Notes under the pieces: model-generated
Databases searched by the model: none
What the model saw: only the letters and a program-made list of their open reading frames with translations
Told to the model about the DNA's origin: nothing
Position numbers and translations under genes: made by a program
IMG/VR virus record: IMGVR_UViG_3300023179_008905
Coordinates: 1-64,000 of that record
From: a virus
Reading direction: 5' to 3' (one strand)
Length of the DNA: 64,000 nucleotides
Shown: piece after piece, positions 9,529-40,599 of the stretch
Numbering within the stretch: position 1 is the first letter of the stretch
Layout: each line of letters starts with the position of its first letter

Positions 9529-10139
9529 TCTGTTCTATTATAATTGTCGTCAGTCGGCTCAACGTAAATATGAGCACTCCCACCTTCATCGGAACTAAGC
9601 ATCAAATCAGTATAAACCTTATCGCGGTATTCATTTAAAACAGCATGATGTTTATTTTCCTTTTTAATTCTGTTAATAAATGCATGAAATGCAATGGTCG
9701 TAAAATAAGAAAACGGACTAAATCCTGTGTTTAATTTAAACTTCTTATTTCTTAAAGCAGAGAACATCTTTACTATAGCATCGCCTATCATATCATCTTT
9801 GTAGGAGTAATTGATAAAATTAGGTGCATAAGATAGTCCATGTGCAATTTTTGTTAAACTTTCTCCAAGCTTTTCTGTAATATTACCAGATTTATAATAC
9901 TTTCTAATCTCATCTTCAAATTCTTTACTATTTACATAATGAACCTTATCTTTTGGCTTTACTTTTTTTCCGTCTGGGGTAACTTCAGGTGTTGCTATAT
10001 TTGTGGTAAGTATCTTCTTAAGCTCCGGGTCGCTTTGAATACTCTCCGTATCTTCAGATAATTCTTCTACTTTCTGATTTTTCTTTTTTTCAGATTTCGG
10101 CAATTTTTTTGATGGTATATTTGATTTTTTCTTTCTCAT
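9525..10139 (-). CDS. 55: gp55, late-transcription sigma factor
   Basis: In T4, gp55 is the sigma-family protein that recognises the late promoter TATAAATA. Residues about 95-165 resemble sigma70 region 2: a helical stretch (YKDDMIGDAIVKMFSALRNKKF) then NTGFSPFSYFTTIAFHAFINRIKKE. The first 45 residues are a lysine-rich, probably disordered extension. The 204-aa length is near T4 gp55 (185). Many TAAATA boxes in this window fit the presence of this factor. The gene overlaps uvsW by 50 bp at its 5' end, so a later start is possible. Confidence 0.88.
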   Translation of the reverse strand: MRKKKSNIPSKKLPKSEKKKNQKVEELSEDTESIQSDPELKKILTTNIATPEVTPDGKKVKPKDKVHYVNSKEFEDEIRKYYKSGNITEKLGESLTKIAHGLSYAPNFINYSYKDDMIGDAIVKMFSALRNKKFKLNTGFSPFSYFTTIAFHAFINRIKKENKHHAVLNEYRDKVYTDLMLSSDEGGSAHIYVEPTDDNYNRTE

Positions 10140-11547
10140 AAAGGTTTATTCGTTTTTCCATGTGTGCAGTACTATATTTAAAATCATCGGCTATGTCGAA
10201 TATTATAAGCTTATCCTTATCCTTATGCAAGCGAAGGCCTCTACCAATTGATTGAACTATTTTTATTTTTGCTTTTCCACCGCACGCAAAAACAATATAA
10301 TGTAAATTCTTAATATTGATTCCTGTAGAAAATATTTTTGATATTGCGACCACTACTACATCTGATCTATTTTCCATTAATGATCTTATTTTTTCTCTCT
10401 CTGCAACCTCTACTTCACCGCGAATAAAATATATCTGCTTCTTAGAGCAAAGTTCTTTTAAAGCTCTGTAAAGCGCCTCTCCATGCTCAATAAAGTCTAC
10501 TAAAATGAGAGCATTATTAGTTAACTTGCAAGCTAGCTTACCAATAACATTATTTCTAAATTTATTTCTAATTAAAAATCTCTGCTCTTCTCTATAAAGA
10601 TTTGCGGACGATATAACAACATCTTTGAAGGGGTCTTCATTGTAGCTTATTTTAAGAATCTGCACTAAAACATTGCTTACATAGTTTTCAAGTCTAAGTT
10701 CATGACTATGTTTTTCATATATAACAGGTCCTATTTTACCTATAATATTCCATTGATCAATTAACCCCTCAGGCATTGTACCCGTAAAACCAAAGCGAAC
10801 TGGTGTTTTTATCTTTTTTATAATTTTGTTTATTTCATTTCCTTTACGTATTTTGTGAACCTCGTCTACAATTAAACAATCTATATCTTCAATCCAGGTA
10901 AGATCTGTATTTTTACTTTGTAAAATGCCGAGATTTGCAACTGTAACATTTGCATTACCTTCTAATGGGGTACTACCTGTCCATTTACGAACAGTAAATG
11001 GTACATTATATGTTTTAAAATCTTCAGATGTCTGTTCAACTAAGCCTAGATCAGGTACAATGTAAAGACATTTGAAATTTGAGCCATGTAGTAAGAACAT
11101 CTTTGTTAACAAAGATGCAGCTGTCAACGTCTTGCCACCAGCGGTAGCTAATACTATTGTACCGCGGCCTATTGAATAAGCCTTTTTGACAATCTCTTCT
11201 TGATAATCGCGCAACGGTAAAGCAAGTGGTATTATATTATCACTGTAAAGAGGGTTCGACTTCCATCTGGTAGATGGAACAATTTGTTCGTGAAATAAAG
11301 GATCAGTTTTTACTTCACCTACATAGTTTTTTGTAGTTAAAAATTTTCTTATTTCAAAATAAAGCCCGGGTTCAAATCTACCTGTGGGTGTTATTGCATA
11401 AGTTCTTTGAGGTAAAAATCTTCCGTATCTTCTGCGTACAAAAAAAGCAGCATCATTTTTAACAGAAAAATTCTCTCTAATTTCTTCAAATTGTTCGCCA
11501 GATAGAATACCGGTACCCTTCTTAGGGTCGTAAGAAAAATTAATCAT
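10090..11547 (-). CDS. uvsW: UvsW, superfamily 2 DNA helicase
   Basis: UvsW is a branch-migration helicase that resolves recombination intermediates and origin R-loops in T4. Motifs visible are Walker A TAGGKT (near residue 133), DEVH box VDEVHK (near 227), motif III GFTGT (near 253) and motif VI QSIGRGLRLH (near 437). The length of 485 aa fits T4 UvsW (503). It overlaps uvsY by 4 bp (ATGA) and precedes gene 55. Confidence 0.93.
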   Translation of the reverse strand: MINFSYDPKKGTGILSGEQFEEIRENFSVKNDAAFFVRRRYGRFLPQRTYAITPTGRFEPGLYFEIRKFLTTKNYVGEVKTDPLFHEQIVPSTRWKSNPLYSDNIIPLALPLRDYQEEIVKKAYSIGRGTIVLATAGGKTLTAASLLTKMFLLHGSNFKCLYIVPDLGLVEQTSEDFKTYNVPFTVRKWTGSTPLEGNANVTVANLGILQSKNTDLTWIEDIDCLIVDEVHKIRKGNEINKIIKKIKTPVRFGFTGTMPEGLIDQWNIIGKIGPVIYEKHSHELRLENYVSNVLVQILKISYNEDPFKDVVISSANLYREEQRFLIRNKFRNNVIGKLACKLTNNALILVDFIEHGEALYRALKELCSKKQIYFIRGEVEVAEREKIRSLMENRSDVVVVAISKIFSTGINIKNLHYIVFACGGKAKIKIVQSIGRGLRLHKDKDKLIIFDIADDFKYSTAHMEKRINLYEKEKIKYTIKKIAEI

Positions 11548-25542: not shown

Positions 25543-26286
25543 ATGAGTGATTCGTATATTTTTTTAAGTGACGATAAGTTATTTTATACTCTAGAAGGTG
25601 AAGGTGAGTATGTAGGATATCCTTCTGTTTTTATGCGTTTATCAATGTGTAATTTAACGTGTAAAGGATTTGCTTCATCTGATTCACCTCACGGTTGCGA
25701 TAGTTTTGTCAGCTGGTCAGTAAAAAACAGAATGACGTTTGATGAGGTGTTTGAATATATGGCACAAAATAGTTATAACTGCCATTTAAAAGATGGTGCT
25801 ATATGGAAAATTACTGGTGGCGAACCACTTATTCAACAAAAAACATTATTAGAGCTTGTTGATCAATTTATTTTCCGCTTTGGGTTTGTACCGAGAATAG
25901 ACTTTGAAACAAATGCTACAATTATACCTGACCATCAGTGGGTAGATTGGAAAGCAACATTTACAACTTCACCTAAGCTTTCAAACAACGGAGATCCGAT
26001 TGAAAAGAGATATAAGCCTGAAGTATTAAAATGGCATGTAAAACATAATTCGGGCTTTAAATTTGTTATTAATAATGAAAACGATTTTAATGAAGTTTTA
26101 GAAAAATATATACTTGAGCCGAATATTAAAGTTCCCCGGGAAAGAGTATGGTTAATGCCTTGTTGTGGTAGTAGAGAAGAGCATATTGAAAAGGCGTCTG
26201 TTATTGCCGAGTTATGTAAAAAACATAAGCTTAAATTTAGTCCAAGATTACAACTTGTTATTTGGAATAAAGCTCTTAAAGTATAA
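25543..26286 (+). CDS. queE: 7-carboxy-7-deazaguanine synthase QueE (radical SAM), variant cluster motif
   Basis: QueE is the radical SAM enzyme that makes the 7-deazaguanine ring. TLEGEGEYVGYPSVFMRL (residues 16-33) is typical of the family, as are ITGGEPLIQQ (near 89) and FETNAT (near 123). The cysteines near residues 36-52 read C-NLT-C, then 11 residues, then C. That is CX3CX11C rather than the classic CX3CX2C. The start is the ATG behind a good promoter. The gene is followed after one base by a P-loop kinase. Identity is firm; the cluster geometry is unusual. Confidence 0.92.
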   Translation: MSDSYIFLSDDKLFYTLEGEGEYVGYPSVFMRLSMCNLTCKGFASSDSPHGCDSFVSWSVKNRMTFDEVFEYMAQNSYNCHLKDGAIWKITGGEPLIQQKTLLELVDQFIFRFGFVPRIDFETNATIIPDHQWVDWKATFTTSPKLSNNGDPIEKRYKPEVLKWHVKHNSGFKFVINNENDFNEVLEKYILEPNIKVPRERVWLMPCCGSREEHIEKASVIAELCKKHKLKFSPRLQLVIWNKALKV

Positions 26287-28037: not shown

Positions 28038-28853
28038 ATGGAGAAAATAGGTGTTGGTATTATAACATGTAATCGACCACGGTTTTTTGTAAAATGCTTT
28101 AGATCTATACCTCTAGTAGATAATATTATCGTTGTTAATGATGGTGCGGATTTTGAGGATGTAAGTAAGCTGCAACAGGAAAAGTCTTTTTATTATGTTC
28201 ATAATAAAACAAATATTGGTGTTGGTAGATCAAAAAATATTGCTTTAAAATATTTATTAGAACAAGGCTGCACACATTTATTTCTTATAGAAGATGATAT
28301 AGTAGTAAAAAATAAAGACGTATTTAATGTTTATATTAATGCTAGAAAAATAACCGGTTTACAGCATTTTAATTTTGGTTATCATGGTCCAGCTAATAGA
28401 AACAATATTTCTAAAGGTCAGCCGGTTCCCAGATTTATTATTGATTACGGTGATACAAAAATTGCTATAAATGCAAATAGCGTTGGCGCATTTTGTTATT
28501 ACACCAAAGAGGCTCTCGAAGAAACGGGGTTATTAGATGAAAGTTATTTAAATGCTTTTGAACATGTAGATCATGACTACAGGCTTTTTAAAGCAGGATA
28601 TTATACGCCATATTGGAATTTTGCTGACATAGCTAATAGTTTAGAATATTTAGATGAATTAGAATGCTCTGAAAATAGTAGCTCTATTAGACCGAGATCA
28701 GATTGGCGTCAGAATATTGAGCGCGGATTACAAATTTTTAAAAATAAGCATGGTTATACACCAGCATGGGAAAATAGAGTACCCGATTCTACAGAAGAAG
28801 AGGTAAAAAAAGTTTTAAAGACGATTTATAAAAAATATTCATTGAAAAAATAA
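28038..28853 (+). CDS. family 2-type glycosyltransferase
   Basis: A 271-aa GT-A fold protein. It opens with IGVGIITCNRPRFF, followed by VDNIIVVNDGADF, NIGVGRSKNIAL (near residue 60) and an acidic metal-binding segment LIEDDIVVKN (near 88). It is the first gene of the sugar cassette. Acceptor and donor are unknown. Confidence 0.85.
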   Translation: MEKIGVGIITCNRPRFFVKCFRSIPLVDNIIVVNDGADFEDVSKLQQEKSFYYVHNKTNIGVGRSKNIALKYLLEQGCTHLFLIEDDIVVKNKDVFNVYINARKITGLQHFNFGYHGPANRNNISKGQPVPRFIIDYGDTKIAINANSVGAFCYYTKEALEETGLLDESYLNAFEHVDHDYRLFKAGYYTPYWNFADIANSLEYLDELECSENSSSIRPRSDWRQNIERGLQIFKNKHGYTPAWENRVPDSTEEEVKKVLKTIYKKYSLKK

Positions 28854-28875: not shown

Positions 28876-29313
28876 GTGCAAAGAAAGTACTTACCTACCT
28901 TTTCAGAATTAGTTGATAGACTTACAATAGTTTTACTTAAAAGTATTTTTATCCCTCAAAACAAATCTCAGTATAATCAGGAAATAAAAGATATTAAGCA
29001 CGATATAGATCAAATAATTAATGATAAAAATATTAAGCTAAATTCTGATATTATTAAATCAATTTGTATTATTATGCTTGCAAACCGATATATTTGGGAG
29101 AATGAAAGTAAATGTCGGTCTGGTGAATCACAGGACTTATCTCTTCTTAAACTTACCCATTCAATTAACGGGGTAAGAAATACTGCAAAAAACATTTTAG
29201 CAAAAGAATTTAATGAAAGACAAGATCTTAAAATTGATTGCCTTGCTGCTGAACTTTTATCAGATTTTCAAAATTGGGATATTTTTAAAGATTATGAAGA
29301 AAAAACAAAATAA
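28876..29313 (+). CDS. hypothetical helical protein of the sugar cassette
   Basis: A 145-aa helical protein starting with GTG (MQRKYLPTFSELVDRLTIV). The charged middle (EIKDIKHDIDQII) and conserved-looking WENESKCRSGESQDLSLLKL suggest a globular helical bundle. It overlaps the following gene by 20 bp. I do not recognise the function; its place points to polysaccharide-related work. Confidence 0.7.
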   Translation: MQRKYLPTFSELVDRLTIVLLKSIFIPQNKSQYNQEIKDIKHDIDQIINDKNIKLNSDIIKSICIIMLANRYIWENESKCRSGESQDLSLLKLTHSINGVRNTAKNILAKEFNERQDLKIDCLAAELLSDFQNWDIFKDYEEKTK

Positions 29314-29641
29314 ACAAACACCTCCAAACATTCCTTTTAATGAATATTATAAAGGATATCTAAAGAAACATACAAACCTAATTAATCGTAGATTACATGT
29401 ATTAGGTCAATTAACAACAATTGCTTATTTCCTTACTGTAACTTATTTGACAGTGAAAGTAAGCCTGGCGTTTGCTTTGTTATACCCTTTTACTTTATTT
29501 GTTGTTTACCCGTTTGCATGGTCGGGGCATTTTTTCTTTGAAAAAAATAAACCCGCTGCTTTTAAAAATCCTTGGAAAGCTAAAGCAGCAGACTGGGTAA
29601 TGTTAAAAGATATTCTTCTTGGAAGAATTAAATTATGGTGA
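29294..29641 (+). CDS. Mpo1-like (DUF962) membrane protein
   Basis: A 115-aa protein with the DUF962 pattern: FNEYYKGYLKKHTNLINRRLHVLG (residues 16-39), two hydrophobic segments (about 43-75), then FAWSGHFFFEKNKPAAF (near 79) and DWVMLKDILLG (near 102). The yeast relative Mpo1 is an Fe-dependent 2-hydroxy fatty acid dioxygenase of alpha-oxidation. The ATG at 29294 is chosen because the family pattern begins just after it. The His residues of the family are present. A phage role in lipid or surface change is inferred. Confidence 0.8.
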   Translation: MKKKQNKQTPPNIPFNEYYKGYLKKHTNLINRRLHVLGQLTTIAYFLTVTYLTVKVSLAFALLYPFTLFVVYPFAWSGHFFFEKNKPAAFKNPWKAKAADWVMLKDILLGRIKLW

Positions 29642-30174
29642 GAACAAAAACAGACTATGTAAGTAATACGATTAAAGATTTATTGGTATTAAAGCCAGGA
29701 ATCTTTCGTGATTATAGAGGAGAAAACGTTGAAACGTTTGATAAAGAATATAATCGTATTTCTTTAGCACACATTGATGAGTTTAGAAAAGAGAAATTAG
29801 AGTTTGTCGTAGATTCACTTTCCTTTTCTAGAAAAAATGTTCTTAGAGGATTCCATGGTGATACAAAAGCTTGGAAATTAGTTCAATGCATTCAAGGCAG
29901 CATTTACTTAGTAGTTATTGATACAAGAAAAGATTCTCCTACTTTTAAAAATATTGAAACATTTACTTTAGATGATAAAGATAGGCATCAAGTTCTCATT
30001 CCACGTGGTTGCGTTAATGCGCATTTATGCTTAACAGATACATGCACTTTTTTCTATAAATTAACACATGGCTATGTTAATCCTGAAGATCAAATTACTG
30101 TAAAATGGAATGATCCAAGTTATAATGTAAAATGGCCTATAGTTAACCCCATTTTATCATTAAGAGATTCATGA
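29635..30174 (+). CDS. dTDP-4-dehydrorhamnose 3,5-epimerase-like (RmlC) protein
   Basis: A 179-aa cupin with RmlC-like segments: GIFRDYRGENVETF (near residue 24), NVLRGFHGDTKAWKLVQCIQGSI (near 65), IPRGCVNAHLCLTDTCTFFYK (near 122) and a C-terminal DQITVKWNDPS. RmlC-type enzymes epimerise nucleotide 4-keto-6-deoxysugars. Start and stop overlap the neighbours by 7 and 4 bp. The exact sugar is unknown. Confidence 0.82.
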   Translation: MVRTKTDYVSNTIKDLLVLKPGIFRDYRGENVETFDKEYNRISLAHIDEFRKEKLEFVVDSLSFSRKNVLRGFHGDTKAWKLVQCIQGSIYLVVIDTRKDSPTFKNIETFTLDDKDRHQVLIPRGCVNAHLCLTDTCTFFYKLTHGYVNPEDQITVKWNDPSYNVKWPIVNPILSLRDS

Positions 30175-31112
30175 AAATATTAATTACCGGTGGTGCAGGG
30201 TATATTGGGTGTAAGCTTACGCAAGCTTTAGCCGATCATTATAAGACTGAAAAAGTAATTGTTTACGATAATTTAATGTACAAGCAAGATGGACTTTTTT
30301 CACTTCTTAGTCACCCTAAGATTGAATTTGTCTACGGTGATGTAAGGGAAGAACAAAAACTATCTAAATTAGTTAAAGAAGCTGATATCGTTATTCCTCT
30401 TGCTGCTATAGTAGGGTTCCCTGCCTGTGCAAAAGATCCTGATACTGCTAACAAAGTAAATAATTTACAAATACAAAATATTATTAAATGGGCTAACAAT
30501 GATACAAAAATAATTTACCCAAATACTAATAGTGGCTACGGTGTTGGCGTAGAAGGTGAATTCTGTACAGAAGAAACACCTCTTAATCCTATCTCGGTTT
30601 ACGGGGTAACAAAATGCGCGGCAGAAAAATCAGTTCTCGATTTTGGGGGGATATCTTTTAGGCTTGCTACAGTATTTGGTGTCTCACCTCGCTTTCGAAA
30701 AGATCTATTAGTAAATAGTTTTGTCTTAAAAGCACTAACAGACAAATATATTGTTTTGTTTGAGAGTCATTTTAAACGTAATTTTATACATGTAAACGAT
30801 GTTGTAAAAGCATTTATAGCAATGATACACAACTATAATAATTACAAGGGTCAAGCTTTTAATGTTGGCTTATCTACTGCAAACCTTTCAAAGCTTGAAT
30901 TGTGTGAAAAAATAAAACAATATATACCTGATTTTGTTATAACAACTAACGAATTTAATACAGATCAAGATAAACGAAATTATATTGTAAGTAATGAAAA
31001 ATTAGAGGCCATCGGTTGGAAGCCCGATTGTAGTCTAGATTATGGTATACAGGAGCTAATTAAAGCATATCCAGTTATTATAAATACGGATACTAAACAT
31101 ACTAACTTGTAA
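30171..31112 (+). CDS. NAD-dependent nucleotide-sugar epimerase/dehydratase (extended SDR)
   Basis: A 313-aa extended short-chain dehydrogenase. The NAD-binding GGAGYIG is at residues 7-13, the substrate loop is near NTNSGYGVG (118), and the catalytic YGVTK is near residue 144. Such enzymes epimerise, dehydrate or reduce nucleotide sugars. It is joined to the RmlC-like gene by a 4-bp overlap. Confidence 0.88.
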   Translation: MKILITGGAGYIGCKLTQALADHYKTEKVIVYDNLMYKQDGLFSLLSHPKIEFVYGDVREEQKLSKLVKEADIVIPLAAIVGFPACAKDPDTANKVNNLQIQNIIKWANNDTKIIYPNTNSGYGVGVEGEFCTEETPLNPISVYGVTKCAAEKSVLDFGGISFRLATVFGVSPRFRKDLLVNSFVLKALTDKYIVLFESHFKRNFIHVNDVVKAFIAMIHNYNNYKGQAFNVGLSTANLSKLELCEKIKQYIPDFVITTNEFNTDQDKRNYIVSNEKLEAIGWKPDCSLDYGIQELIKAYPVIINTDTKHTNL

Positions 31113-31138: not shown

Positions 31139-32635
31139 ATGAGTTTAGATTTACTTGTTATTCACCCCAACGCTGCTAAAAAAATTTATCAAGGGCTAAG
31201 TAAAAGTTTTTCTGCCAAAGAGCCACCCATATGGGCAGGGCTTATAGCTAATTACATACGTAAGCATGGTCATTCTGTACAAATTTTAGATTGTGAAGCA
31301 TTAGAATATACTTTAGATGAAACACTTAGTGAAATAAGAAAACTTGATCCTAAGCTCGTGTGTACTGTAGCTTACGGTCAGCAGCCTTCAGCATCCACAC
31401 AAAATATGACTGGTGCTTTAAGCTTAATGCAGAAAATTGGCGCCGAAACAAACATTCCTAGAGTTTTCTCTGGTCCTCACCCTTCATCTCTTCCTGAGCT
31501 TACTCTTAAGCAAGACCCGGGTTGCTATGTCTGTGAAGGGGAAGGCCCTAAAACAGTTTTACATCTGTTAGAAGCTATTAAAAATAATGAAAAAGATTTA
31601 TCTAAAGTCCCGGGATTATGGTATAGTAGTGAAGCAGGTCCTATACGCAATGCACCAGCAACATTATTTAAAGATTTAGATAATGAACTACCTGGAGTTG
31701 CTTGGGATTTATTACCATTAGAAAAATATAGAACGGCTAATTGGCACAGTTGGACAAATAATAATAACACTCAGCCGTTTGCATCTATTTATACGAGCCT
31801 AGGCTGTCCTTTTCAATGCACGTTTTGTATGATTAATGCTCCGTTTAACGACGGTGATATTAAGAATAATGCGTTCAGACACTGGTCTCCGGAATTTATA
31901 ATTAAGCAGTTCGATTTTTTTGCAGAAAAAGGTATTAAGAATGTAAAGATAGCTGATGAAATGTTTGTTTATAAGCCTGCACATTTTATGAAGTTGTGTG
32001 AACTTATAATTGAACGTGGTTATAATTTTAATATGTGGGCTTATGCACGTGTAGACACAATTAGAGAAAAATATCTCGAAACACTTAAAAAGGCCGGTGT
32101 AAATTGGCTGGGTATTGGTATTGAATCTGCTAATAAGCTTGTTCGTCAGGAAGTTACTAAGGGCAAGTTTCAGGAAGTTAATATTCGCGACATAGTAAAA
32201 AAGGTATCGGATTCCGGTATTTGTGTAGGTGGTAATTATATTTTCGGTCTGCCAGGTGATACACACGAAACTATGCAAGAAACGTTAGATCTCGCTTTAG
32301 ACCTTAAAACAGAATATGCTAATTTTTACTGTGCTATGGCTTACCCCGGATCACAGCTTCATAGAGAAGCTGTAAAAAACCGTCCTCACGTATTACCTGA
32401 AAATAATGGAATTGGTTGGGTCGGTTATTCACAACATGCTTTTGAAACATTTAATTTACCCACCGATAAATTAACTAATAAAGAAATTTTACAATTTAGA
32501 GATAAAGCTTTTGAAACATATTTTACTAATCCGGACTATATAGCTAAAATGAAAGCAAAGTTTGGAGTTGCATTTGAAGAAGAATTAACTAGAATGTTAA
32601 GTATAAAGCTTGAAAGGAAGCTATTAACTGAATAA
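31139..32635 (+). CDS. B12-binding-domain radical SAM enzyme
   Basis: A 498-aa protein. The N-terminal 180 residues resemble a cobalamin-binding domain (LLVIHPNAA at the start, IRKHGHSVQILDCEA near 50, SGPHPSSLPELTL near 110, CEGEGPKTV near 136). The radical SAM domain follows with CPFQCTFC near residue 222 (CX3CX2C) and IGIESAN near 326. Members methylate or rearrange unreactive carbons or alter lipids and sugars. A weak promoter (TTGTAA, 31107-31112; TATA box near 31131) lies upstream. Substrate unknown. Confidence 0.85.
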   Translation: MSLDLLVIHPNAAKKIYQGLSKSFSAKEPPIWAGLIANYIRKHGHSVQILDCEALEYTLDETLSEIRKLDPKLVCTVAYGQQPSASTQNMTGALSLMQKIGAETNIPRVFSGPHPSSLPELTLKQDPGCYVCEGEGPKTVLHLLEAIKNNEKDLSKVPGLWYSSEAGPIRNAPATLFKDLDNELPGVAWDLLPLEKYRTANWHSWTNNNNTQPFASIYTSLGCPFQCTFCMINAPFNDGDIKNNAFRHWSPEFIIKQFDFFAEKGIKNVKIADEMFVYKPAHFMKLCELIIERGYNFNMWAYARVDTIREKYLETLKKAGVNWLGIGIESANKLVRQEVTKGKFQEVNIRDIVKKVSDSGICVGGNYIFGLPGDTHETMQETLDLALDLKTEYANFYCAMAYPGSQLHREAVKNRPHVLPENNGIGWVGYSQHAFETFNLPTDKLTNKEILQFRDKAFETYFTNPDYIAKMKAKFGVAFEEELTRMLSIKLERKLLTE

Positions 32636-32638
32636 TTT

Positions 32639-33172
32639 ATGAAAAAAGCACTAATATTAACCTGGGACGGATACCAAGATCAAGAAGTAATTTACCCTTT
32701 TTATAGGCTAAAAGAGGAAAATTTTGATATTACTCTTTGCGCAGAAAAAGAAGGTCTATTTTATGGAATTCTTGGTACTAAAATGACTGCTAATGGTACT
32801 TGCAGTAGTATTAATACTAATAATGTACTAAACTATGATTTTCTATTGCTCCCTGGCGGTGTTAAAGCGCTAGAAAAAATCAGACAGCAAAAAAATATTT
32901 TAGACTCTATTACACACTACGTAAATTCAGGTCGAATTGTTGCTAGTACATGCCACGGTGCACAGCTATTAGTTTCTGCTAAGGTTGTTAAGGGTAGAAA
33001 GATTGCAGCATACTATAGTATTGAAGATGATATTAATAATTCTGGTGCTATATATACACGTGAGCCAGTAGTTATTGCAGATAATATTGTCTCATCTCCA
33101 CACTATGATCACATGGGCATTTGGATGAAGACTGCAATTGAACAATACTATAAGTGGGCTGATCGTAGTTGA
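32639..33172 (+). CDS. DJ-1/PfpI-family protein
   Basis: A 177-aa protein with the DJ-1/PfpI fold pattern: ALILTWDGYQDQEVIYPFYRL at the start, LLLPGG near residue 66, and the nucleophile elbow STCHGAQLL near residue 103 with Cys then His. It lies 3 bases after the radical SAM gene. Family members are deglycase, chaperone or amidase-like; its task in the cassette is unclear. Confidence 0.85.
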   Translation: MKKALILTWDGYQDQEVIYPFYRLKEENFDITLCAEKEGLFYGILGTKMTANGTCSSINTNNVLNYDFLLLPGGVKALEKIRQQKNILDSITHYVNSGRIVASTCHGAQLLVSAKVVKGRKIAAYYSIEDDINNSGAIYTREPVVIADNIVSSPHYDHMGIWMKTAIEQYYKWADRS

Positions 33173-33187
33173 TAGCTAAAATGGTAT

Positions 33188-33838
33188 ATGCATGATGCTA
33201 CCGATTTTAGGAATTACGTTATTCCTAAACCATGGGGTCATGAGTATATTATTTTTGAAAATAATTTCTTAAGTATTTGGTATTTGTTTATAAAAAGCGG
33301 TGCAAGCACCTCTCTTCATTGTCATCCTAAGAAAAAAACCGGGCTCGTTGTACTAGAGGGTACTGCTCGCTTTCATCTTATTGAAAGAGATTTTGAACTT
33401 CAAAGCAATCAAAAAGTTATGATAAGACCGGGCTCATTTCATAAGACAGAAAACAGAACAAATCAAAACTTGCATATTATAGAGGTTGAAACACCAAAAG
33501 ATAAAGAAAACTTAGTACGAATATCTGATCTTTATGGAAGGCAGAATAAAGCGTATGAGTCTGAAACATTAAAAAGAACTAATGAGTTTTTTATTCCTAA
33601 TGATAGCTTTTTAAAATTAGAATTTTTAAATAATAGTTTTGAAATTGTTTCTAATTTAATAACCCTTAACCCTAATGATTCGGATTTATTAGTTGTGTTA
33701 AGCCCTACCCTTTTTAAGCACCATGATCATGATTTATGTCCCGTAGGTGAAATTTTATCAGGTAAAACTTTTAAAAAATTGGCAATCGATTATACTATTG
33801 CTAAAAATGCACAAATACTTAAAATCTGTCACTTATGA
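33188..33838 (+). CDS. cupin protein, mannose-6-phosphate isomerase-like
   Basis: A 216-aa protein. KPWGHEYIIFE (near residue 14) and the cupin metal motif SLHCHPKKKTGLVVLEG (near 41), then PGSFHKTENR (near 82), resemble type II phosphomannose isomerase and related cupins. The second half may be another, degenerate cupin barrel. It overlaps the following HAD gene by 4 bp. It may isomerise a sugar phosphate or act on a nucleotide sugar. Confidence 0.78.
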   Translation: MHDATDFRNYVIPKPWGHEYIIFENNFLSIWYLFIKSGASTSLHCHPKKKTGLVVLEGTARFHLIERDFELQSNQKVMIRPGSFHKTENRTNQNLHIIEVETPKDKENLVRISDLYGRQNKAYESETLKRTNEFFIPNDSFLKLEFLNNSFEIVSNLITLNPNDSDLLVVLSPTLFKHHDHDLCPVGEILSGKTFKKLAIDYTIAKNAQILKICHL

Positions 33839-34323
33839 TACTTGACTATGATACTATTATTTTAGATTTAGATGATACTGTATGGCACGGTAGTGAAAAA
33901 AATATTTGGGCTAAGACATTAAGAGGTCAAATAACATTACAAAATGTAAATGATCAGAAAAGAGTATATGATGAAACGGGAAGATACCTATATCTTGACA
34001 AGGATATAGTTGTTTTTTTAAATAAATTAAAAAACGACTTTAAGCGAATTGAATTTATATCGCGCGGTATGCTGCCTTGTATTTCTTTTGATAAACAACC
34101 ATCGATAATTGCTCTTAAATATTTTGACATTTTTCATTTGTTTGATAAGCGTACTTTATTGTATAAGAACGAAAATAAAGGCCATCACATTATTTCTACC
34201 GGCAAAACAATTTTTATTGACGATAATGATATAGATGTCAATCGAGTGCAAAAATTACATAAAAATATTACTTGCATTAACAGAAATATATTTGATAATT
34301 GGATGCATCTTTATGAACGATAA
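33835..34323 (+). CDS. HAD-superfamily phosphatase-like protein
   Basis: A 162-aa protein. HAD motif I is ILDLDDTVWHG (near residue 9), a lysine-containing loop is at about 115, and FIDDNDIDV (near 125) provides the terminal acidic motif. It resembles small Mg-dependent phosphatases. The next gene starts within its last codons. Together with the kinase at 39847 it could supply or trim sugar phosphates. Confidence 0.8.
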   Translation: MILDYDTIILDLDDTVWHGSEKNIWAKTLRGQITLQNVNDQKRVYDETGRYLYLDKDIVVFLNKLKNDFKRIEFISRGMLPCISFDKQPSIIALKYFDIFHLFDKRTLLYKNENKGHHIISTGKTIFIDDNDIDVNRVQKLHKNITCINRNIFDNWMHLYER

Positions 34324-35164
34324 CGAAAGATTACAAATTTTTTCTGAAGCATGTAAATGCAGAGCGTTTGAAGAAATAGTATATAAGTATATAGAAAATA
34401 AAACATTTAAGTATCCTCTTTATCTTTCAGCTGGAGAAGAGTATATTGCATGCTCAGTTGCACATTTTACTAAGAAATATTCTCCATATATATTTGCACA
34501 ACACCGTGCACATAGCACGTATCTGGCGTTTGGTGGTGTAATACAAGAATTAATTGATGAGCTTTTAGGTAGGCCAACAGGTTGTTGTAAGGGTATGGGT
34601 GGATCAGCTTCTATACAATCAAAACATATAAAAATGTTTGGTCATGATGGTCTTATGGGCAGTCAAGTACCTATTGCTGTTGGTGCATGTCATGCTAATA
34701 GACACTTTACTGTTGCTATTATGGGCGATGCTGCAGCAGAAGAAGATTACGTAATGTCTGCTATAGCTTGGGCAGGCACTAAAAAGCTTCCTATTCTTTT
34801 TGTAATAGAAGATAATAATTTATCTATTTTAACAAAGAAGAATGTTAGACGTAACTGGAGTATGGTAGATTTTGCAAAGTCTGTTAATGTTAATGCAGCT
34901 GAAATTAGCGATGAGCCTACAAGCTTTGAGTCATGGTTAAGCGAAGAAAAGTTATTTAACAATTTACCGCTACTACTTAATGTAAATACAGATAGATTAT
35001 ATTGGCATGCAAATGCTGGCATCGATGTATACGAAAAAGTAGATAGATTTACAGAAGAGAAATTTGCACTAGAGAAGATTTTTGGAGATAAACCACTTTT
35101 AATGTTTAATGAAACAAAACATGAACTGGAGAAAATATGGCAAAAAACCTTAGAGATACAATAA
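34313..35164 (+). CDS. thiamine-diphosphate dehydrogenase E1 alpha-like subunit
   Basis: A 283-aa protein like the alpha subunit of pyruvate/acetoin dehydrogenase E1. FAQHRAHSTYLAFGG (near residue 62), GCCKGMGGSASIQS (near 90) and the ThDP motif GDAAAEEDYV with NN at the end (about 138-167) are visible. The ATG at 34313 is chosen because similarity begins there; the frame extends further upstream inside the HAD gene. It overlaps the beta subunit gene by 28 bp. No E2 or E3 gene is near, so it is unlikely to be a classical dehydrogenase complex. Confidence 0.85.
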   Translation: MNDNERLQIFSEACKCRAFEEIVYKYIENKTFKYPLYLSAGEEYIACSVAHFTKKYSPYIFAQHRAHSTYLAFGGVIQELIDELLGRPTGCCKGMGGSASIQSKHIKMFGHDGLMGSQVPIAVGACHANRHFTVAIMGDAAAEEDYVMSAIAWAGTKKLPILFVIEDNNLSILTKKNVRRNWSMVDFAKSVNVNAAEISDEPTSFESWLSEEKLFNNLPLLLNVNTDRLYWHANAGIDVYEKVDRFTEEKFALEKIFGDKPLLMFNETKHELEKIWQKTLEIQ

Positions 35165-36039
35165 AAGAAATTTCTGCTTATCATCTGAGTAAAGGTAACA
35201 AACTTTACGGTCAATGTCTTACTGCTGTTGGCTGGGTTAACGGTACAGTACCAGAATTAACAGAAGAACAGGGTATAGTTGAGCTATCTATGGCTGATGT
35301 TATGGCAGGTGGGATTGTTACGGGCGCAGCACTAGCTGGTCAGCGACCTATTTACGTAGTACGCTATCAAGGATTTCAATGGTTTAATGCACCTATTATA
35401 GCTAATTATGCTGGTAAGAGTAAGGACATTTGGGGGATATCTTGTCCAGTGTTTATTAGATCTATTGCTATGGAAGGCGGTATAGGACCGGTTGCCGGTT
35501 CATCACACCATGGAATTTATTATCGTATGCCGGGTGTAAAGATAGCTTCACCTATGACACCTTTTGAGTATGAAGAAGTGTACAATTCGTTTATGCTAGA
35601 CGATATGCCTTACTATGTAAGTGAGCATAGAAAAAGTTATGAGTGCGATTATCGTTTAGAAGATATTGAATATGAAAATCCGGATATTTGTTTATTCCCG
35701 TTTTCTATTACTAGATTTGAATCAGTTAAAGCATCACAATCGCTAGCTAAACAAGGCATAAAAGTCAATGTATACCACCAGCTTTGGATTAACCCCTTAT
35801 TAATATCTGAGAACCAAAAAGATCAATTAAAGAAATCAAAATACGGCGGTATTGTTTTAGATGACGATTATCCGAATGGTATAGCCAAACAAGTTGCTTA
35901 TGAGTTGATGCTTGAGACAAACAAGCCAGTTAGAACTTTATGTATTAAAGAAAAGACAGCCGGCTTTCAGCCTGAGGACGACAACATGCCACCTACATCT
36001 ATTGAAATTGAAGAATATATACTTAAATTACTAAAATAA
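35137..36039 (+). CDS. thiamine-diphosphate dehydrogenase E1 beta-like subunit
   Basis: A 300-aa protein like E1 beta. It has TEEQGIVELSMADVMAGGIVTGAALAG (near residue 45), FIRSIAMEGGIGPVAGSSHH (near 106) and a transketolase C-domain-like region (about 170-290). Together with the alpha gene it should form a two-subunit ThDP enzyme that transfers or decarboxylates a 2-oxo acid. Directly followed by the DegT-family gene. Confidence 0.87.
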   Translation: MAKNLRDTIKEISAYHLSKGNKLYGQCLTAVGWVNGTVPELTEEQGIVELSMADVMAGGIVTGAALAGQRPIYVVRYQGFQWFNAPIIANYAGKSKDIWGISCPVFIRSIAMEGGIGPVAGSSHHGIYYRMPGVKIASPMTPFEYEEVYNSFMLDDMPYYVSEHRKSYECDYRLEDIEYENPDICLFPFSITRFESVKASQSLAKQGIKVNVYHQLWINPLLISENQKDQLKKSKYGGIVLDDDYPNGIAKQVAYELMLETNKPVRTLCIKEKTAGFQPEDDNMPPTSIEIEEYILKLLK

Positions 36040-37259
36040 TGAGCGCTGAAAAGTATTTGTTGATGGATGATAATATAACTCGTAATGATATTAACGAAGT
36101 TATAAAATTCCTACAACAAGACCCTTTGCCGCAGCTAACAAACGGACCAAAGGTACGAGAGTTTGAGCAAGCTTGGTCTAAGTGGTTAGGGGTAAAATAT
36201 AGCGTTTTTGTCAATTCAGGTACTATTGCAAATCAGCTAACTATGCTATTAGTACGCTATCTAAATAATAATAAAAACTTTTCACCACGAGTTATTGTTC
36301 CCCCGCTTACATGGGTTTCCGATATTGCATCAACATTGCAAAATGGTATCGAGCCTGTATTTTGTGATATAAATTTCTCTAACCTTAGCTTTGATAATAA
36401 AAAGCTTTTGCAAAAAATAGAAAAAATAAAACAAGATACTGGTGAATACCCAGCAGCAATTTTTCTTACACATATTTTAGGGCTTAATGGACTTACTGAT
36501 TATATTATTAACCTTTGTAAAGATAATAATATTTTGCTTATTGAAGATGTCTGTGAATCGCATGGAACGACTTTTAAAGGCCATAAAGTCGGTACTTTTG
36601 GAGATGTAAGTAATTTTAGTTTTTATTTTGCACATCACATGTCAACCATAGAAGGCGGTATTATTTGTACAAACAATGAACATTATTACAATTTGTTAAG
36701 AGCATTTAGATCTCATGGTATGGTGCGTGAATGTGATAGTTTAGAATTTAAAAATGATATTATTAAACAAAATCCTCAATTAAATTCTGATTTTATTTTT
36801 CTTGCGCCAGCTTTTAATGCTCGTAGTACAGAAATTAATGCTGTGCTAGGATTATCACAACTCAAAAAACTAGATAATAATAATGAGATTAGAAGACAAA
36901 ATTTTGATTATTTTATTTCTAATTTGGATGGTGAAAAATATATTAAAACATTTGACATTACAGGACAATGTAATTACGCATTTATTGTAATTCTTAAAAA
37001 CGGCAATATTGAAAAGCGTAATAAAGTAGAAGCTGTTTTAAAACAGAACAATATTGAATTTCGTAGAGGTCTTTCCGGGGGCGGCAGTCAAATTCAACAA
37101 CCATATTTAAGAAATTTTTATAAAAATTATTCTCAAATAAATTTATATGAATTCGACGTTATGAATTATATTCATGATCATTCCTGGTATATTGGTAATT
37201 ATCCTACACTTAAGAAAGAAAAAATAGATAGTCTTCTAAGCATCTTAAACGGTGTTTAA
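36039..37259 (+). CDS. DegT/DnrJ-family PLP enzyme with His in place of the PLP lysine (dehydratase type)
   Basis: A 406-aa sugar aminotransferase-fold protein. Visible blocks are FVNSGTIANQL (near residue 57), LLIEDVCESHGT (near 168) and SFYFAHHMSTIEGG (near 190-203). In aminotransferases the last block carries the lysine that binds PLP; here a His takes that place. That change is known in the ColD and RfbH/E1 3-dehydratases, which remove the C3 hydroxyl of 4-keto-6-deoxyhexoses. Its start shares one base with the E1 beta stop. Prediction: formation of a 3,6-dideoxy sugar. Confidence 0.85.
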   Translation: MSAEKYLLMDDNITRNDINEVIKFLQQDPLPQLTNGPKVREFEQAWSKWLGVKYSVFVNSGTIANQLTMLLVRYLNNNKNFSPRVIVPPLTWVSDIASTLQNGIEPVFCDINFSNLSFDNKKLLQKIEKIKQDTGEYPAAIFLTHILGLNGLTDYIINLCKDNNILLIEDVCESHGTTFKGHKVGTFGDVSNFSFYFAHHMSTIEGGIICTNNEHYYNLLRAFRSHGMVRECDSLEFKNDIIKQNPQLNSDFIFLAPAFNARSTEINAVLGLSQLKKLDNNNEIRRQNFDYFISNLDGEKYIKTFDITGQCNYAFIVILKNGNIEKRNKVEAVLKQNNIEFRRGLSGGGSQIQQPYLRNFYKNYSQINLYEFDVMNYIHDHSWYIGNYPTLKKEKIDSLLSILNGV

Positions 37260-37264
37260 TCATT

Positions 37265-38188
37265 ATGAAATACCTAGTGGTATTTAATACATGCGAACTT
37301 AAGGGACCGAATTTTAAGTGGTATGAATCCTGTTTAGATAATCTCCTCAAAGTAAAATCAGATCAATATGAATACGATATTGCGGTTTCTGGTTGCATGA
37401 TAACACCCGATACACAAGAAAAACTGTTAAAAAAATATAAAAATAAAATAATCTTTAATTTTATAGAATGTAAGCTTACGGTAAATGTGACTTTTAATCA
37501 TACAATTAATAAAATAGTTGAGCAACGCGGCAGATATGATGGGTATGTATATTTTGATTCTGGTGTTAATATTAATGACAATTTACATTATCTTGACGAA
37601 ATACATTCTCGCTTTGCTACTAAAAAATATGGTATGGTAACGCTACAGACCGATACCGATACAGGTTTTTATTTTCTTGGATTGTATGGTTATTTTTACG
37701 ACCACGATTACATTGTACCAGTTGGCAAGGCATGTAATCTACATGTAACTTGTTTTAGCGATAAGCTTCTTCAATACTATAACAAACTTATACCTGATAT
37801 ATTTTTAGCTTATTGTACAGAATCGGTTTTTAGCTTTTTAAATGCGGCATTAAATTTGCGTTGGATTATTGTAAAAGATCTTATTTTGGAGCACAAAAAA
37901 TCTATTGATGGCGCTTCTGCTGGATTTGATCATGTAGGAAAAAAGGAGCACTGGAATAATCTTTACGGTGGTCTAGATATGCTTGATATTATTAAAGACC
38001 CAGAAGCAAGAAGATTAGGTCTAGGATATGAAGAGATTAATCACATCATGATGCATGATGTTGAAGCATTTACACACTACGGACATGCTAAAAATAATGG
38101 GTTAAAAGACTATATAAAAGAAAAACTTTTTCTAAAAGATAGAATGCTTAACTATAATCATATTCCTTTTAAATTTTATAATATTTAG
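37265..38188 (+). CDS. glycosyltransferase-like protein, tandem copy 1
   Basis: A 307-aa protein about half identical to the next one (307 and 308 aa). Shared blocks are YLVVFNTCEL, RYDGYVYFDSGVN (with an acidic motif), TLQTDTDTGF, HVTCFSDKLLQYY and PDIFLAYCTESVFSFLNAAL. The pattern is like GT-A folds with a DxD-type site, but the family is not firmly recognised. It is 6 bases after the DegT gene. Confidence 0.7.
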   Translation: MKYLVVFNTCELKGPNFKWYESCLDNLLKVKSDQYEYDIAVSGCMITPDTQEKLLKKYKNKIIFNFIECKLTVNVTFNHTINKIVEQRGRYDGYVYFDSGVNINDNLHYLDEIHSRFATKKYGMVTLQTDTDTGFYFLGLYGYFYDHDYIVPVGKACNLHVTCFSDKLLQYYNKLIPDIFLAYCTESVFSFLNAALNLRWIIVKDLILEHKKSIDGASAGFDHVGKKEHWNNLYGGLDMLDIIKDPEARRLGLGYEEINHIMMHDVEAFTHYGHAKNNGLKDYIKEKLFLKDRMLNYNHIPFKFYNI

Positions 38189-38200
38189 TATTTCTTTTTT

Positions 38201-38208
38201 GATAAATA
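38201..38208 (+). promoter_or_regulatory. late promoter box GATAAATA
   Basis: The last A lies 9 nt before the ATG at 38217. It is the only late box seen inside the sugar cassette, and it lies between the two tandem copies. Confidence 0.4.
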
Positions 38209-38216
38209 TATTAAGT

Positions 38217-39143
38217 ATGAAATACTTAGGAGTATATAACATTTGTGAACGTAAGCATAAAAATTATGAGTGGTATGAGTCATGCATAGATAATCTTTTA
38301 AGAGTAAAATCTGATCAATATGATTACGATATTGCGGTCTCCGGGTGCATGGTTTCAGCCGAAACGCAAGAAAAATTGTTAGCTCGCTACAAAGATAAAG
38401 TTTTTTTATACTTTACAGATGAAAATTTTACAGTTAATGTTACCTTTAATCATGCTGTAAATAAAATTGTCGAAGAAAAGGGAAGATATGATGGTTACAT
38501 TTATTTTGATTCAGGAATTAACATTCACGATAATATAAACTATCTAGATGAAATACATTCAAGATTTGTAACTGGTGAATTTGGTATGGTCACCGTACAG
38601 ACCGACACAGATACAGGGTTTCATTTTGTAGGGAGATCTAACAGCCATTTTCGTGATGAGGATTATATAATACCTGTTGGTAAAGCTGTAAATTTACATG
38701 TAACTTGCTTTAATGATAAATTGCTGCAATATTACGGAAAAGTAATACCCGATATATTTTTAGCATATTGCACAGAATCGGTTTTTAGCTTTCTTAATGC
38801 TGCATTACATTTAAAATGGGTCATTGTAAAAGATCTTATTGTCGCTCACAAGGCTGTTGATGGCGGTTCTTCCGGGTTTTGTCATTACGGTAAAAAGTCT
38901 TGTCCGTGGAACAACGTCTTCGGCGATTTAGATATGAACGATATTATTAATGATCCGGAAGCAAAAAGATTGGGACTGGGGTATGAAGAAATCGGCAATG
39001 TAATGATCCATGATGAAAATGCTTTTACTTCTGAAGGTTTTGCCAAGTATGATGAGCTTAAAGTTTACATAAAAGAAAAACTCTATTTATCAAAACAAAT
39101 GCTGGACTATGATAAAATTGAGTTTAAATTTTATAGTAAATGA
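38217..39143 (+). CDS. glycosyltransferase-like protein, tandem copy 2
   Basis: A 308-aa protein, the second copy of a duplicated gene. The ATG at 38217 is chosen because MKYLGVYNIC aligns with MKYLVVFNTC of copy 1; an earlier ATG at 38199 would add six unrelated residues and include the late box. Acidic and TDTDTGF blocks are retained, so both copies look functional. The two could glycosylate different acceptors or positions. Confidence 0.7.
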   Translation: MKYLGVYNICERKHKNYEWYESCIDNLLRVKSDQYDYDIAVSGCMVSAETQEKLLARYKDKVFLYFTDENFTVNVTFNHAVNKIVEEKGRYDGYIYFDSGINIHDNINYLDEIHSRFVTGEFGMVTVQTDTDTGFHFVGRSNSHFRDEDYIIPVGKAVNLHVTCFNDKLLQYYGKVIPDIFLAYCTESVFSFLNAALHLKWVIVKDLIVAHKAVDGGSSGFCHYGKKSCPWNNVFGDLDMNDIINDPEAKRLGLGYEEIGNVMIHDENAFTSEGFAKYDELKVYIKEKLYLSKQMLDYDKIEFKFYSK

Positions 39144-39844
39144 AGTTTAGTATTCTTGTCCCTACTAGAAAAAGAGTTAAGAATATAAAAAATTTAGTTC
39201 AGTCGGTATATTCTACAACTAAAAATCTTAACAATATAGAATTATTGTTTTATGTTGACAAAGATGACATTGAAACTCAAAATTTTTTTGATCAAGAGAA
39301 AGTAAAGCCTAGGTTTACACATCTTATATCTACAAAAGTTATTGTACAAGAAAGACAGCCTACATTTGGTGAAACAAATAATGTTCTCTATAGAGCTAGT
39401 ACAGGTGATATTATAATGATGGCTGCTGATGATGTATGCTTTAGGACACAAAATTGGGATGAAATTGTTGCTAGTGAATTTGAGAAATATCCCGATAATA
39501 TTGCTCTTGTTTTTGGTTATGATGGTATTCAGCCTCCTGGTACTTTAGCCACACACAGCTTTGTATCTAGAAAAGCTATAGATATATTAGGTTATGTTAC
39601 GCCAAGCGATTTTGGCTATAACTATGCTGATAATTGGATTACAGAAATCTATAGACAAGTCAATAGATTAATTTATATACCGGTATACTTTGAACATTGT
39701 CATTGGGGAATTGGGAAAGCTCCTTTTGATGAGACATATGAACGCGGCTCTCATGCACCGCATGATAACAGTATAAAAATTTGGGAAGATAAAGCTCGTT
39801 TAAATAGAGATATTGAACGTTTAAAATTACACATAAATAAATAA
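39140..39844 (+). CDS. family 2-type glycosyltransferase
   Basis: A 234-aa GT-A protein: FSILVPTRKRVKNIKNLVQSV at the start, FYVDKDDIETQ near residue 36, and MMAADDVCF (near 94) as the metal-binding acidic motif. It overlaps copy 2 by 4 bp. Donor and acceptor unknown. Confidence 0.82.
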   Translation: MKFSILVPTRKRVKNIKNLVQSVYSTTKNLNNIELLFYVDKDDIETQNFFDQEKVKPRFTHLISTKVIVQERQPTFGETNNVLYRASTGDIIMMAADDVCFRTQNWDEIVASEFEKYPDNIALVFGYDGIQPPGTLATHSFVSRKAIDILGYVTPSDFGYNYADNWITEIYRQVNRLIYIPVYFEHCHWGIGKAPFDETYERGSHAPHDNSIKIWEDKARLNRDIERLKLHINK

Positions 39845-39846
39845 TA

Positions 39847-40599
39847 ATGCTTACTAAGCCTGTTCTTATTATAGGTGATTCCTGTAAAGATGCCTTTATA
39901 TATTGTAAGTGCGATAGATTATGTCCAGAAGCACCTGTACCTGTGCTCGATATTATAGAAAAAAGACATAACGGAGGGATGGCTATGAACGTATTTAAAA
40001 ATTTTAAAAAGCTCTATAAAAATGTAGAAATAGTTACTAATAAAAATTGGAGCAGGATTACAAAAACCAGATATATGGATATTAAAACAAACCATATGTT
40101 TATAAGAATAGATCATTGTGAAAATAATAACTTTACCTTTAAAAATATTAAAAATAAAATTAATTTTAAAAACTATTCAGCAGTAATAATAAGCGATTAT
40201 GACAAAGGATTTTTATCTACTGAAGATATTCAATATATTTCAAAAAATCATGAATTAACTTTTTTAGATACCAAAAAGATTCTCGGCGAATGGGCTAAAA
40301 ATATTACTTTTATTAAAATTAACAGAAACGAATTTGATATTTCTTTTGATTCAATAAAACATTTACCTAATATTTTAAATAAAATTATAAAAACTCTAGG
40401 TAAAGACGGTGCAGAATATAAAAATAAAGTCTACCCTGTAAAAGAGGTTGAAATAAAAGACTTATCTGGAGCTGGAGATACATTTATTGCCAGTCTCGTA
40501 TACGGCTATTTAACAACAAGAGATATAGAAAAATCTATTGAACTTGCAAATAACCACGCCACAATAGTAGTACAAAAAAGAGGCGTCACTACCATATAG
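39847..40599 (+). CDS. PfkB/RfaE-type sugar kinase
   Basis: A 250-aa ribokinase-fold protein. PVLIIGDSCKDAFIYCKCDRLCPEAPVPVL at the start (in the style of HldE/RfaE kinases) and the catalytic LSGAGDTFIASLVYG near residue 206 are present. It is shorter than the RfaE kinase domain (about 310 aa) through loss of part of the lid region. It probably phosphorylates a sugar or heptose phosphate for nucleotide-sugar synthesis. Confidence 0.8.
   Translation: MLTKPVLIIGDSCKDAFIYCKCDRLCPEAPVPVLDIIEKRHNGGMAMNVFKNFKKLYKNVEIVTNKNWSRITKTRYMDIKTNHMFIRIDHCENNNFTFKNIKNKINFKNYSAVIISDYDKGFLSTEDIQYISKNHELTFLDTKKILGEWAKNITFIKINRNEFDISFDSIKHLPNILNKIIKTLGKDGAEYKNKVYPVKEVEIKDLSGAGDTFIASLVYGYLTTRDIEKSIELANNHATIVVQKRGVTTI

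Follow-up and report, generated by a model that had tools for sequence, protein, structure and literature searches.

A ThDP enzyme pair beside a ColD-type dehydratase in a T4-like aquatic phage: a probable exchangeable module for branched-chain deoxysugars

Introduction

What would a phage do with a two-subunit, E1-like thiamine diphosphate (ThDP) enzyme encoded directly in front of a putative sugar dehydratase? The question arises from a 64,000-nucleotide stretch of viral DNA (hereafter the window; positions 1 to 64,000 of the IMG/VR virus record IMGVR_UViG_3300023179_008905), in which an E1-alpha/E1-beta pair, here called the long pair, is followed by a DegT-family enzyme resembling the dehydratase ColD. 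A first-pass annotation had proposed that these proteins attach a two-carbon branch from pyruvate to a nucleotide-linked keto-deoxyhexose. Our analysis indicates that they probably belong to a phage-encoded system in which an exchangeable ThDP carboligase would branch a 4-keto-3-deoxysugar made by the ColD-like enzyme, giving a product of the yersiniose or aldgarose kind. The phage-borne, branched-deoxysugar part of the earlier proposal is upheld by the linkage of ThDP genes to histidine-type dehydratase genes (74 of 80 viral loci, against 3 of 80 in a control) and by the exchange of three ThDP superfamilies beside the dehydratase; its two-carbon branch, pyruvate donor and hexose acceptor found no support here.

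The available part of PMC12247030 describes three groups of sugar-branching ThDP enzymes, namely YerE-like decarboxylases, E1-type enzymes (alpha-KADH2) and transketolases. According to the accessible sections of this source and of PMC4802897, the E1-type enzymes act in the pathways of aldgamycin, kosinostatin, paulomycin and kibdelomycin, and one has been tested in vitro. For yersiniose, the substrate of the ThDP enzyme is CDP-3,6-dideoxy-4-keto-D-glucose, a 3-deoxy ketosugar, and the enzyme ErwE favours hydroxylated 2-oxo acids (PMC12247030, same part).

An E1-like pair in overlapping frames with a ColD-like dehydratase

As the first-pass annotation had noted, the E1-alpha and E1-beta genes lie directly 5' of the DegT gene on the plus strand, within 34313-37259, and Pfam matches back all three assignments (Table 1). 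The frames of E1-alpha and E1-beta overlap by 28 bases and those of E1-beta and the DegT enzyme by 1 base; upstream, a HAD-type phosphatase gene overlaps the start of E1-alpha (ATG at 34313) by 11 bases. The lack of partner subunits, also seen earlier, extends to the entire 76,130-base source record, itself possibly a fragment, where neither E2 (PF00198) nor E3 (PF07992) was found.

Both subunits have the expected folds: the AlphaFold model of E1-alpha (pLDDT 84.5) best matches human pyruvate dehydrogenase (PDH) E1-alpha in the PDB (1ni4_A, TMq 0.79), and that of E1-beta (pLDDT 82.3) matches 1w85_B (TMq 0.82; both by Foldseek). The ThDP motif of E1-alpha is intact, with GD and N unchanged in 100-101 of the 101 non-identical relatives compared. 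Across about 100 non-identical relatives of roughly 45-65% identity, cofactor and active-site residues in general are conserved in 97-100%. E1-alpha reached 103 of the 394 bits of the NCBIfam equivalog for PDH E1-alpha, and the DegT enzyme scored below cut-off against both PseC (178 of 423 bits) and RfbH (178 of 423); because these equivalog cut-offs were missed, neither protein is a certified member of any of these families. An ordinary PDH or acetoin dehydrogenase was discarded as a candidate, given the missing E2 and E3 and profile scores far under the cut-offs.

Relatives of the long pair were obtained through E1-beta alignments. Viral E1-beta relatives show 45-64% identity, with one partial match at 72% (85 stretches, 80 kept), and those in bacterial genomes 48-62% (38 stretches, 37 loci), the hosts being SAR11, SAR116, betaproteobacteria, 'Thiothrix' and several bacteria of the candidate phyla radiation (CPR). 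In three CPR genomes (L117, L121 and L122; L-numbers label the loci of our collections) alpha and beta are fused into one protein of 627-631 amino acids (aa). Searches of viral and genome contigs with E1-alpha alone gave 8 and 21 pattern matches, respectively, none of them confirmed; the same query retrieved two acetoin-type records and nothing else from 50,697 records of known phages, and plasmid searches returned just low-identity relatives of the window pair, plus mostly catabolic-type E1 pairs. An E1 pair on a Streptomyces plasmid, considered as a sugar-branching reference, was set aside as it does not lie in a sugar cluster. A 301-aa protein is encoded 3' of the long pair in two loci (L163, 10900-11805; L158, 11753-12658) and on visual inspection resembles a 2-oxoglutarate/Fe oxygenase; the copy in L163 has no Pfam match, and similar proteins (cluster c14) occur in bacterial loci.

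Among sequences of solved structures, the DegT enzyme comes closest to ColD and ColD mutants (2gms, 2.3e-46) and is more distant from the CDP-sugar 3-dehydratase (1e-27). Alignment to the ColD structures bears out the earlier claim that the motif HHMSTIEGG occupies the site of the pyridoxal phosphate (PLP) lysine in ColD fashion: the first histidine of the HH aligns with N in 3b8x and K in 2r0t, the position of the lysine-replacing histidine, which we take to be His188 of ColD. The enzyme is therefore predicted from this signature to be a 3-dehydratase, and a role as aminotransferase was rejected because the PLP lysine is absent. Its phage homologues show 37-66% identity. Among 262 DegT family matches the residue at the lysine site is His in 218 and Lys in 5, while 39 fall outside the motif pattern and were not scored as histidine-type; these 39 include RfbH-like enzymes (as in L042) and an HQLATIEGG enzyme (L162). 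The RfbH enzyme of L042 (12731-14041, minus strand; 443 bits against the NCBIfam cut-off of 423) is a second dehydratase-type DegT protein present in some cassette phages, and RfbH-like matches similar to it also occur in L043, L044, L045, L030 and L060.

ThDP modules accompany ColD-like genes

We assembled samples of viral loci, comprising the best 80 of 122 relatives of the ColD-like enzyme, 80 of 85 of the long pair, 80 of at least 578 of a shorter E1 pair (the mini pair, described below) and, as a control, 80 of 96 loci carrying a lysine-type DegT aminotransferase. Among the loci fetched by the ColD-like protein alone, 74 of 80 carry a ThDP module from one of four families. The long pair is present in 8 and the mini pair in 55; the 18 loci with neither comprise 5 with an acetolactate-synthase-type enzyme (DC), 7 with a split transketolase (TK) and 6 with none. 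Five loci hold both a mini pair and a DC gene, the latter several kb away from ColD, and were counted through the mini pair. Of the six without a ThDP module, L014, L015 and L065 are near-identical, and L035, L043 and L051 are cut by the contig end before ColD.

In the control, a ThDP module was found in 3 of 80 loci, all three of which also carry a histidine-type enzyme; these contigs had already been found via the mini pair, and the control query came from one of them. The remaining 77 yielded no ThDP module, even when the search was repeated with the seeds unchanged and a more lenient threshold. The definitions of the four families come from the ColD loci and were carried over to the control. 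A Fisher test of 74/80 against 3/80 gives 6e-34, a value that is too strong because the contigs are redundant; several scans share contigs, for instance L042, L133 and L227.

When loci were fetched through the ThDP enzymes instead, a histidine-type ColD was present in 59/80 long, 64/80 mini, 24/40 DC and 40/65 TK loci. Many of the ColD-negative loci are shorter than 15 kb (8/21 long, 14/16 mini, 9/16 DC and 18/25 TK), and 11 of the 21 long-pair loci lacking a histidine-type match carry a DegT enzyme outside the motif pattern. The neighbourhood of long pair and ColD is shared by dozens of further phages and by bacterial genomes, which makes the association of these genes more than chance.

Four ThDP families alternate in one slot

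The mini pair consists of an alpha subunit of about 200 aa, with some 25% identity to the long alpha, and a beta subunit of about 178 aa without Transketolase_C; it keeps the ThDP-activating Glu in 79 of 79 cases. In cyanophages S-SM2 and P-TIM68 a pair related to it is fused into a 402-aa protein annotated 'transketolase central region'. The existence of alpha-beta fusions, both long and mini, shows that the two subunits of each pair act together.

The DC enzyme (617-627 aa in L034, L009, L055, L061 and L062) has a PanB-like gene in five of these five loci. PanB was found in 21 of 40 DC loci, and the one protein tested, encoded 5' of the DC gene, lies above the panB equivalog cut-off. The nearest NCBIfam model of the phage DC enzyme is acetolactate synthase, at 378 of 538 bits and so under the cut-off, and its best PDB match is 8rph (E 1.7e-87, versus 1e-73 for acetolactate synthases). 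The protein in this structure, JanthE, is YerE-like and couples 2-oxo acids with ketones (available part of PMC12188165).

The order radical S-adenosylmethionine (SAM) protein, module X, kinase (where present), ColD, SDR6 (a short-chain dehydrogenase/reductase, SDR) is common to 67 viral loci, X being the mini pair in 26, TK in 18, the long pair in 16 and DC in 7. The kinase is of the GHMP type in 66 of the 67, and PfpI stands in front in those long-pair loci of this order that were printed. The window departs from the fixed order, with the radical SAM and SDR genes upstream and a PfkB kinase, and has the same core genes; related loci carry either a PfkB or a GHMP kinase, never both. A B12 radical SAM protein accompanies 51/80 long, 61/80 mini, 33/40 DC and 62/65 TK loci; the nearest models of the cassette protein are HpnJ and BchE, and also AprD4.

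On a FastTree phylogeny of ColD proteins, the type of ThDP module changes at least 46 times, where the minimum is 3 and shuffled labels give a mean of 71. The tree holds 144 of 159 rows, including the window, after exclusion of rows with no ThDP type, two types or fewer than 330 aa. Forty of its 141 inner branches are weakly supported; if only the starred branches are considered, at least 20 changes of the long and at least 19 of the mini type are still required. The closest relatives of the window ColD on the tree are four proteins encoded next to mini pairs and a fifth next to a DC enzyme. The sample clustered at 95% identity (140 viral ColD proteins, 138 with a ThDP module) was mostly selected through ThDP enzymes and supplies no evidence of linkage.

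Proposed pathway and its alternatives

From the genes, families, motifs, linkage and exchange described above we infer the individual reactions, their substrates and where the sugar ends up, as follows. The ColD-type dehydratase would produce a nucleotide-linked 4-keto-3-deoxy sugar; the free-standing E1 pair would decarboxylate a 2-oxo acid and join the acyl anion so formed to this product at its C4 ketone; an SDR would then reduce or epimerise the branched sugar, and the glycosyltransferases of the cassette would attach it to a glycan, most probably the O-chain of the host. Because three published sugar-branching ThDP groups alternate beside one 3-dehydratase, a branch added to the keto product of ColD is the simplest reading. 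The ThDP module would be exchangeable, its choice presumably varying the branch, and PanB beside the YerE-like enzyme might supply a made-to-order 2-oxo-acid donor.

Several observations weigh against this pathway. In the 76,130-base record, which may be a fragment, neither an NTP transferase (PF00483) nor a 4,6-dehydratase with the dehydratase motif was found; the nucleotide sugar and its 4,6-dehydration are therefore presumed to come from host or phage genes outside it. PfpI (77/80 viral and 30/37 bacterial loci, and only 2/80 mini-pair loci) and a cupin (75/80 viral, 32/37 bacterial) track the long pair more tightly than ColD does (59/80), and the simple branching scheme assigns neither of them a job. 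ColD lies within 10 kb in just 18 of 37 bacterial long-pair loci, and no ThDP neighbour was seen beside more distant histidine-type phage enzymes, such as that of cyanophage S-CAM7. The control behind the comparison of 74 with 3 loci is not fully matched, its phages differing in habitat and phage type from the ColD phages. Lastly, Asp54 of E1-beta aligns with the ThDP-activating Glu (PLAE) of 1w85_B, and Asp occupies this site in 105 of 108 non-identical long E1-beta relatives, the 3 with Glu belonging to a longer, different paralogue. This Glu is general among ThDP enzymes and does not define a sugar-branching function.

Given the Asp-for-Glu exchange and the constant PfpI and cupin partners, the donor of the long pair may be unusual. 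We suggest, as a conjecture, that the PfpI, cupin and HAD-like proteins make or process it. A wider version of the proposal, which we put forward as tentative and somewhat doubtful, would make the cassette a combinatorial branching system of aquatic phages: a fixed core of radical SAM protein, anomeric kinase, ColD and SDR would accept any of four pluggable ThDP families, each giving a different branch and together allowing infected cells a fast change of surface chemistry, and the long E1 would be a new, Asp-using carboligase that draws its donor from PfpI, cupin and HAD-like proteins and forms an undescribed branch.

Heptose-type kinases recur in cassette loci, which also counts against sugar branching and leads to the best-surviving alternative. 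Here the ThDP enzymes would build a ketose phosphate skeleton (sedoheptulose-like, or a 1-deoxyketose as made by DXS) that would feed a heptose-type route comprising an isomerase, an anomeric kinase, a phosphatase and a nucleotidyltransferase. HldE-like PfkB or HddA-like GHMP kinases in 62/80 long and 61/80 mini loci, homologues of GmhA and HddC/GmhB in bacterial loci, the phosphatase slot 5' of E1-alpha, the TK pair as a natural ketose maker, and genes for a phosphoheptose isomerase and a heptose kinase close to the fused enzyme of S-SM2 all speak for such a route. It nevertheless leaves unexplained why ThDP modules are tied to histidine-type (74/80) and not lysine-type DegT enzymes (3/80), and why a YerE-like enzyme stands with PanB; moreover, a GmhA-type isomerase occurs in 0/80 long and 1/80 mini viral loci. 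We therefore consider it unlikely.

That the pair is an unspecialised decarboxylase of 2-oxo acids, or an enzyme of acyl transfer, delivering an aldehyde or an acyl group (e.g., for N- or O-acylation) and lying beside ColD merely through a shared surface-polysaccharide region, appears less probable still. E1 enzymes can act without E2, and the closest profiles of the pair are indeed PDH E1 subunits; however, four ThDP families share one slot among fixed neighbours and are nearly absent from other phage sugar loci, so that mere co-location is disfavoured. That the genes are functionless passenger or 'stuffer' DNA, an idea raised in 2010 for cyanophage lipopolysaccharide (LPS) genes (available part of PMC3037559) and to which the metagenomic origin of the present record lends itself, is very improbable in view of the 97-100% conservation of cofactor and active-site residues, the overlapping frames and an order kept across phages and bacteria.

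Gene content of the cassette and the source record

The portal, prohead protease, major head protein and DNA polymerase of the record are T4-like, and the capsid relatives among the matches listed are T4-like cyanophages at about 33-35% identity; its source is an aquatic T4-like phage. From position 42000 on, the DNA of the window has no close relative among the 50,697 records of known phages. The long pair and the DegT enzyme belong to a plus-strand block of sugar genes at about 28-42 kb of the window (Table 1).

Table 1. Genes of the sugar block in the window and fused mini enzymes of two cyanophages
Feature	Coordinates	Strand	Support or setting
Glycosyltransferase	28038..28853	+	phrog_2456 1.1e-27
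RmlC-like 3,5-epimerase or ketoisomerase	29635..30174	+	PF00908 5e-41; TIGR01221 118.9/155.8 bits
NAD-dependent SDR (SDR6)	30171..31112	+	PF01370 1.1e-32
B12-binding radical SAM protein	31139..32635	+	PF04055 and PF02310
DJ-1/PfpI family protein	32639..33172	+	PF01965 1.1e-32
Cupin (mannose-6-phosphate-isomerase-C-terminal type)	33188..33838	+	PF01050 9.5e-12
HAD-type phosphatase (MDP-1/HAD-IIIC-like)	33835..34323	+	TIGR01685 28.6 bits and Acid_PPase, both below cut-off
E1-alpha-like ThDP subunit (long family), 283 aa, GDA...EDNN	34313..35164	+	E1_dh 5.3e-17 (Pfam)
E1-beta-like ThDP subunit (long family), 300 aa	35137..36039	+	Transket_pyr 3.2e-08, Transketolase_C 1.9e-06
Putative ColD-like His-type DegT 3-dehydratase, 406 aa, HHMSTIEGG	36039..37259	+	DegT_DnrJ_EryC1 3e-60
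Glycosyltransferase	39140..39844	+	phrog_14945 3.7e-34
PfkB-type kinase (HldE domain-I-like)	39847..40599	+	PF00294 4e-19; rfaE_dom_I 121/345 bits
Fused mini enzyme, S-SM2 (L278)	9302-10510		Adjoins alcohol dehydrogenase, close to PfkB kinase
Fused mini enzyme, P-TIM68 (L279)	9296-10504		Adjoins alcohol dehydrogenase, close to PfkB kinase

The SDR6 of the window carries the motif NTNSGYG...YGVTK, without the Asp-Glu pair that we take to be the 4,6-dehydratase motif, and for this reason it is read as an epimerase or reductase; the assignment as a 4,6-dehydratase was dropped. The slot 5' of E1-alpha, held by the HAD phosphatase in the window, is occupied elsewhere by other small HAD-like proteins. 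Three further observations concern the surrounding genes. Tandem paralogues without a PHROG match lie at 37265-38188 and 38199-39143, and their homologues adjoin ColD in related phages. A 145-aa protein without a family match (28876-29313) is present in 38/80 long-pair and 36/80 ColD viral loci. Outside the block, a QueE-like radical SAM gene at 25543-26286 (phrog_2076, 1.4e-42) possibly serves deazaguanine DNA modification.

Comparison with known systems

In 2010 it was still an open question whether the sugar genes carried by marine T4-like phages are functional (available part of PMC3037559), and the branching step proposed here offers a concrete, testable reaction; the isolated cyanophages S-SM2 and P-TIM68, with their fused mini pair, are a ready experimental system. 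The loci are also a source of many small candidate ThDP carboligases, among them an Asp variant and mini enzymes with two domains; carboligases of this kind are in demand for the synthesis of tertiary alcohols. No report of phage-borne ThDP sugar-branching modules was found in the accessible parts of the open-access literature searched, within which the present system would be the first link between phages and branched-chain sugars. PMC11898729, a paper on O-chains, makes no mention of pyruvate dehydrogenase, transketolase, thiamine, heptose or colitose.

The LPS clusters of cyanophages and pelagimyophages resemble our cassette in belonging to T4-like aquatic phages and in combining nucleotide-sugar and glycosyltransferase genes; the accessible sections of the two sources do not mention ThDP branching modules or their exchange (PMC3037559, PMC7029224). 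With PDH E1 (1w85, 1ni4) the window pair shares the fold and cofactor motif; it differs by the absence of E2 and E3, by Asp in place of the catalytic Glu and by an alpha subunit of 283 aa, versus 362 residues in 1ni4_A. The GDP-colitose pathway likewise uses a histidine-type PLP dehydratase, ColD, followed by an SDR, and we know of no ThDP step in colitose synthesis. In the yersiniose A pathway, with the enzymes DdhA-D, YerE and YerF, a 3-dehydratase precedes ThDP branching of a 4-keto-3,6-dideoxy sugar, as proposed here. Unlike the window, with its E1 pair and a dehydratase nearer ColD, that pathway uses YerE, a single-chain enzyme of the decarboxylase family, and a CDP-linked sugar; YerE-like enzymes do occur in phages related to the window, although not in the window itself.

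The closest parallel is with the alpha-KADH2 pairs of aldgamycin, kosinostatin, paulomycin (Plm8/Plm9), avilamycin (AviB1/AviB2) and kibdelomycin (KbDH), in which a two-subunit, E1-like ThDP enzyme also stands beside deoxysugar genes and, according to the available parts of PMC12247030, PMC4802897 and PMC4753412, uses pyruvate as donor to place a C2 branch on a keto sugar. The window pair shows the sequence, fold and neighbourhood features by which that group is recognised, namely separate E1 folds, no E2 or E3, the ThDP motif and adjacent deoxysugar genes, except for the Glu. Compared by description only, it differs in being phage-borne, in its ColD-type dehydratase, in having Asp for Glu and in its PfpI and cupin partners. 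Branched sugars made by ThDP enzymes, E1 pairs included, and LPS clusters in cyanophages and pelagimyophages are thus already known; what is new is the phage cassette, the exchange of four ThDP families within it, the mini pairs, and a long family that carries Asp.

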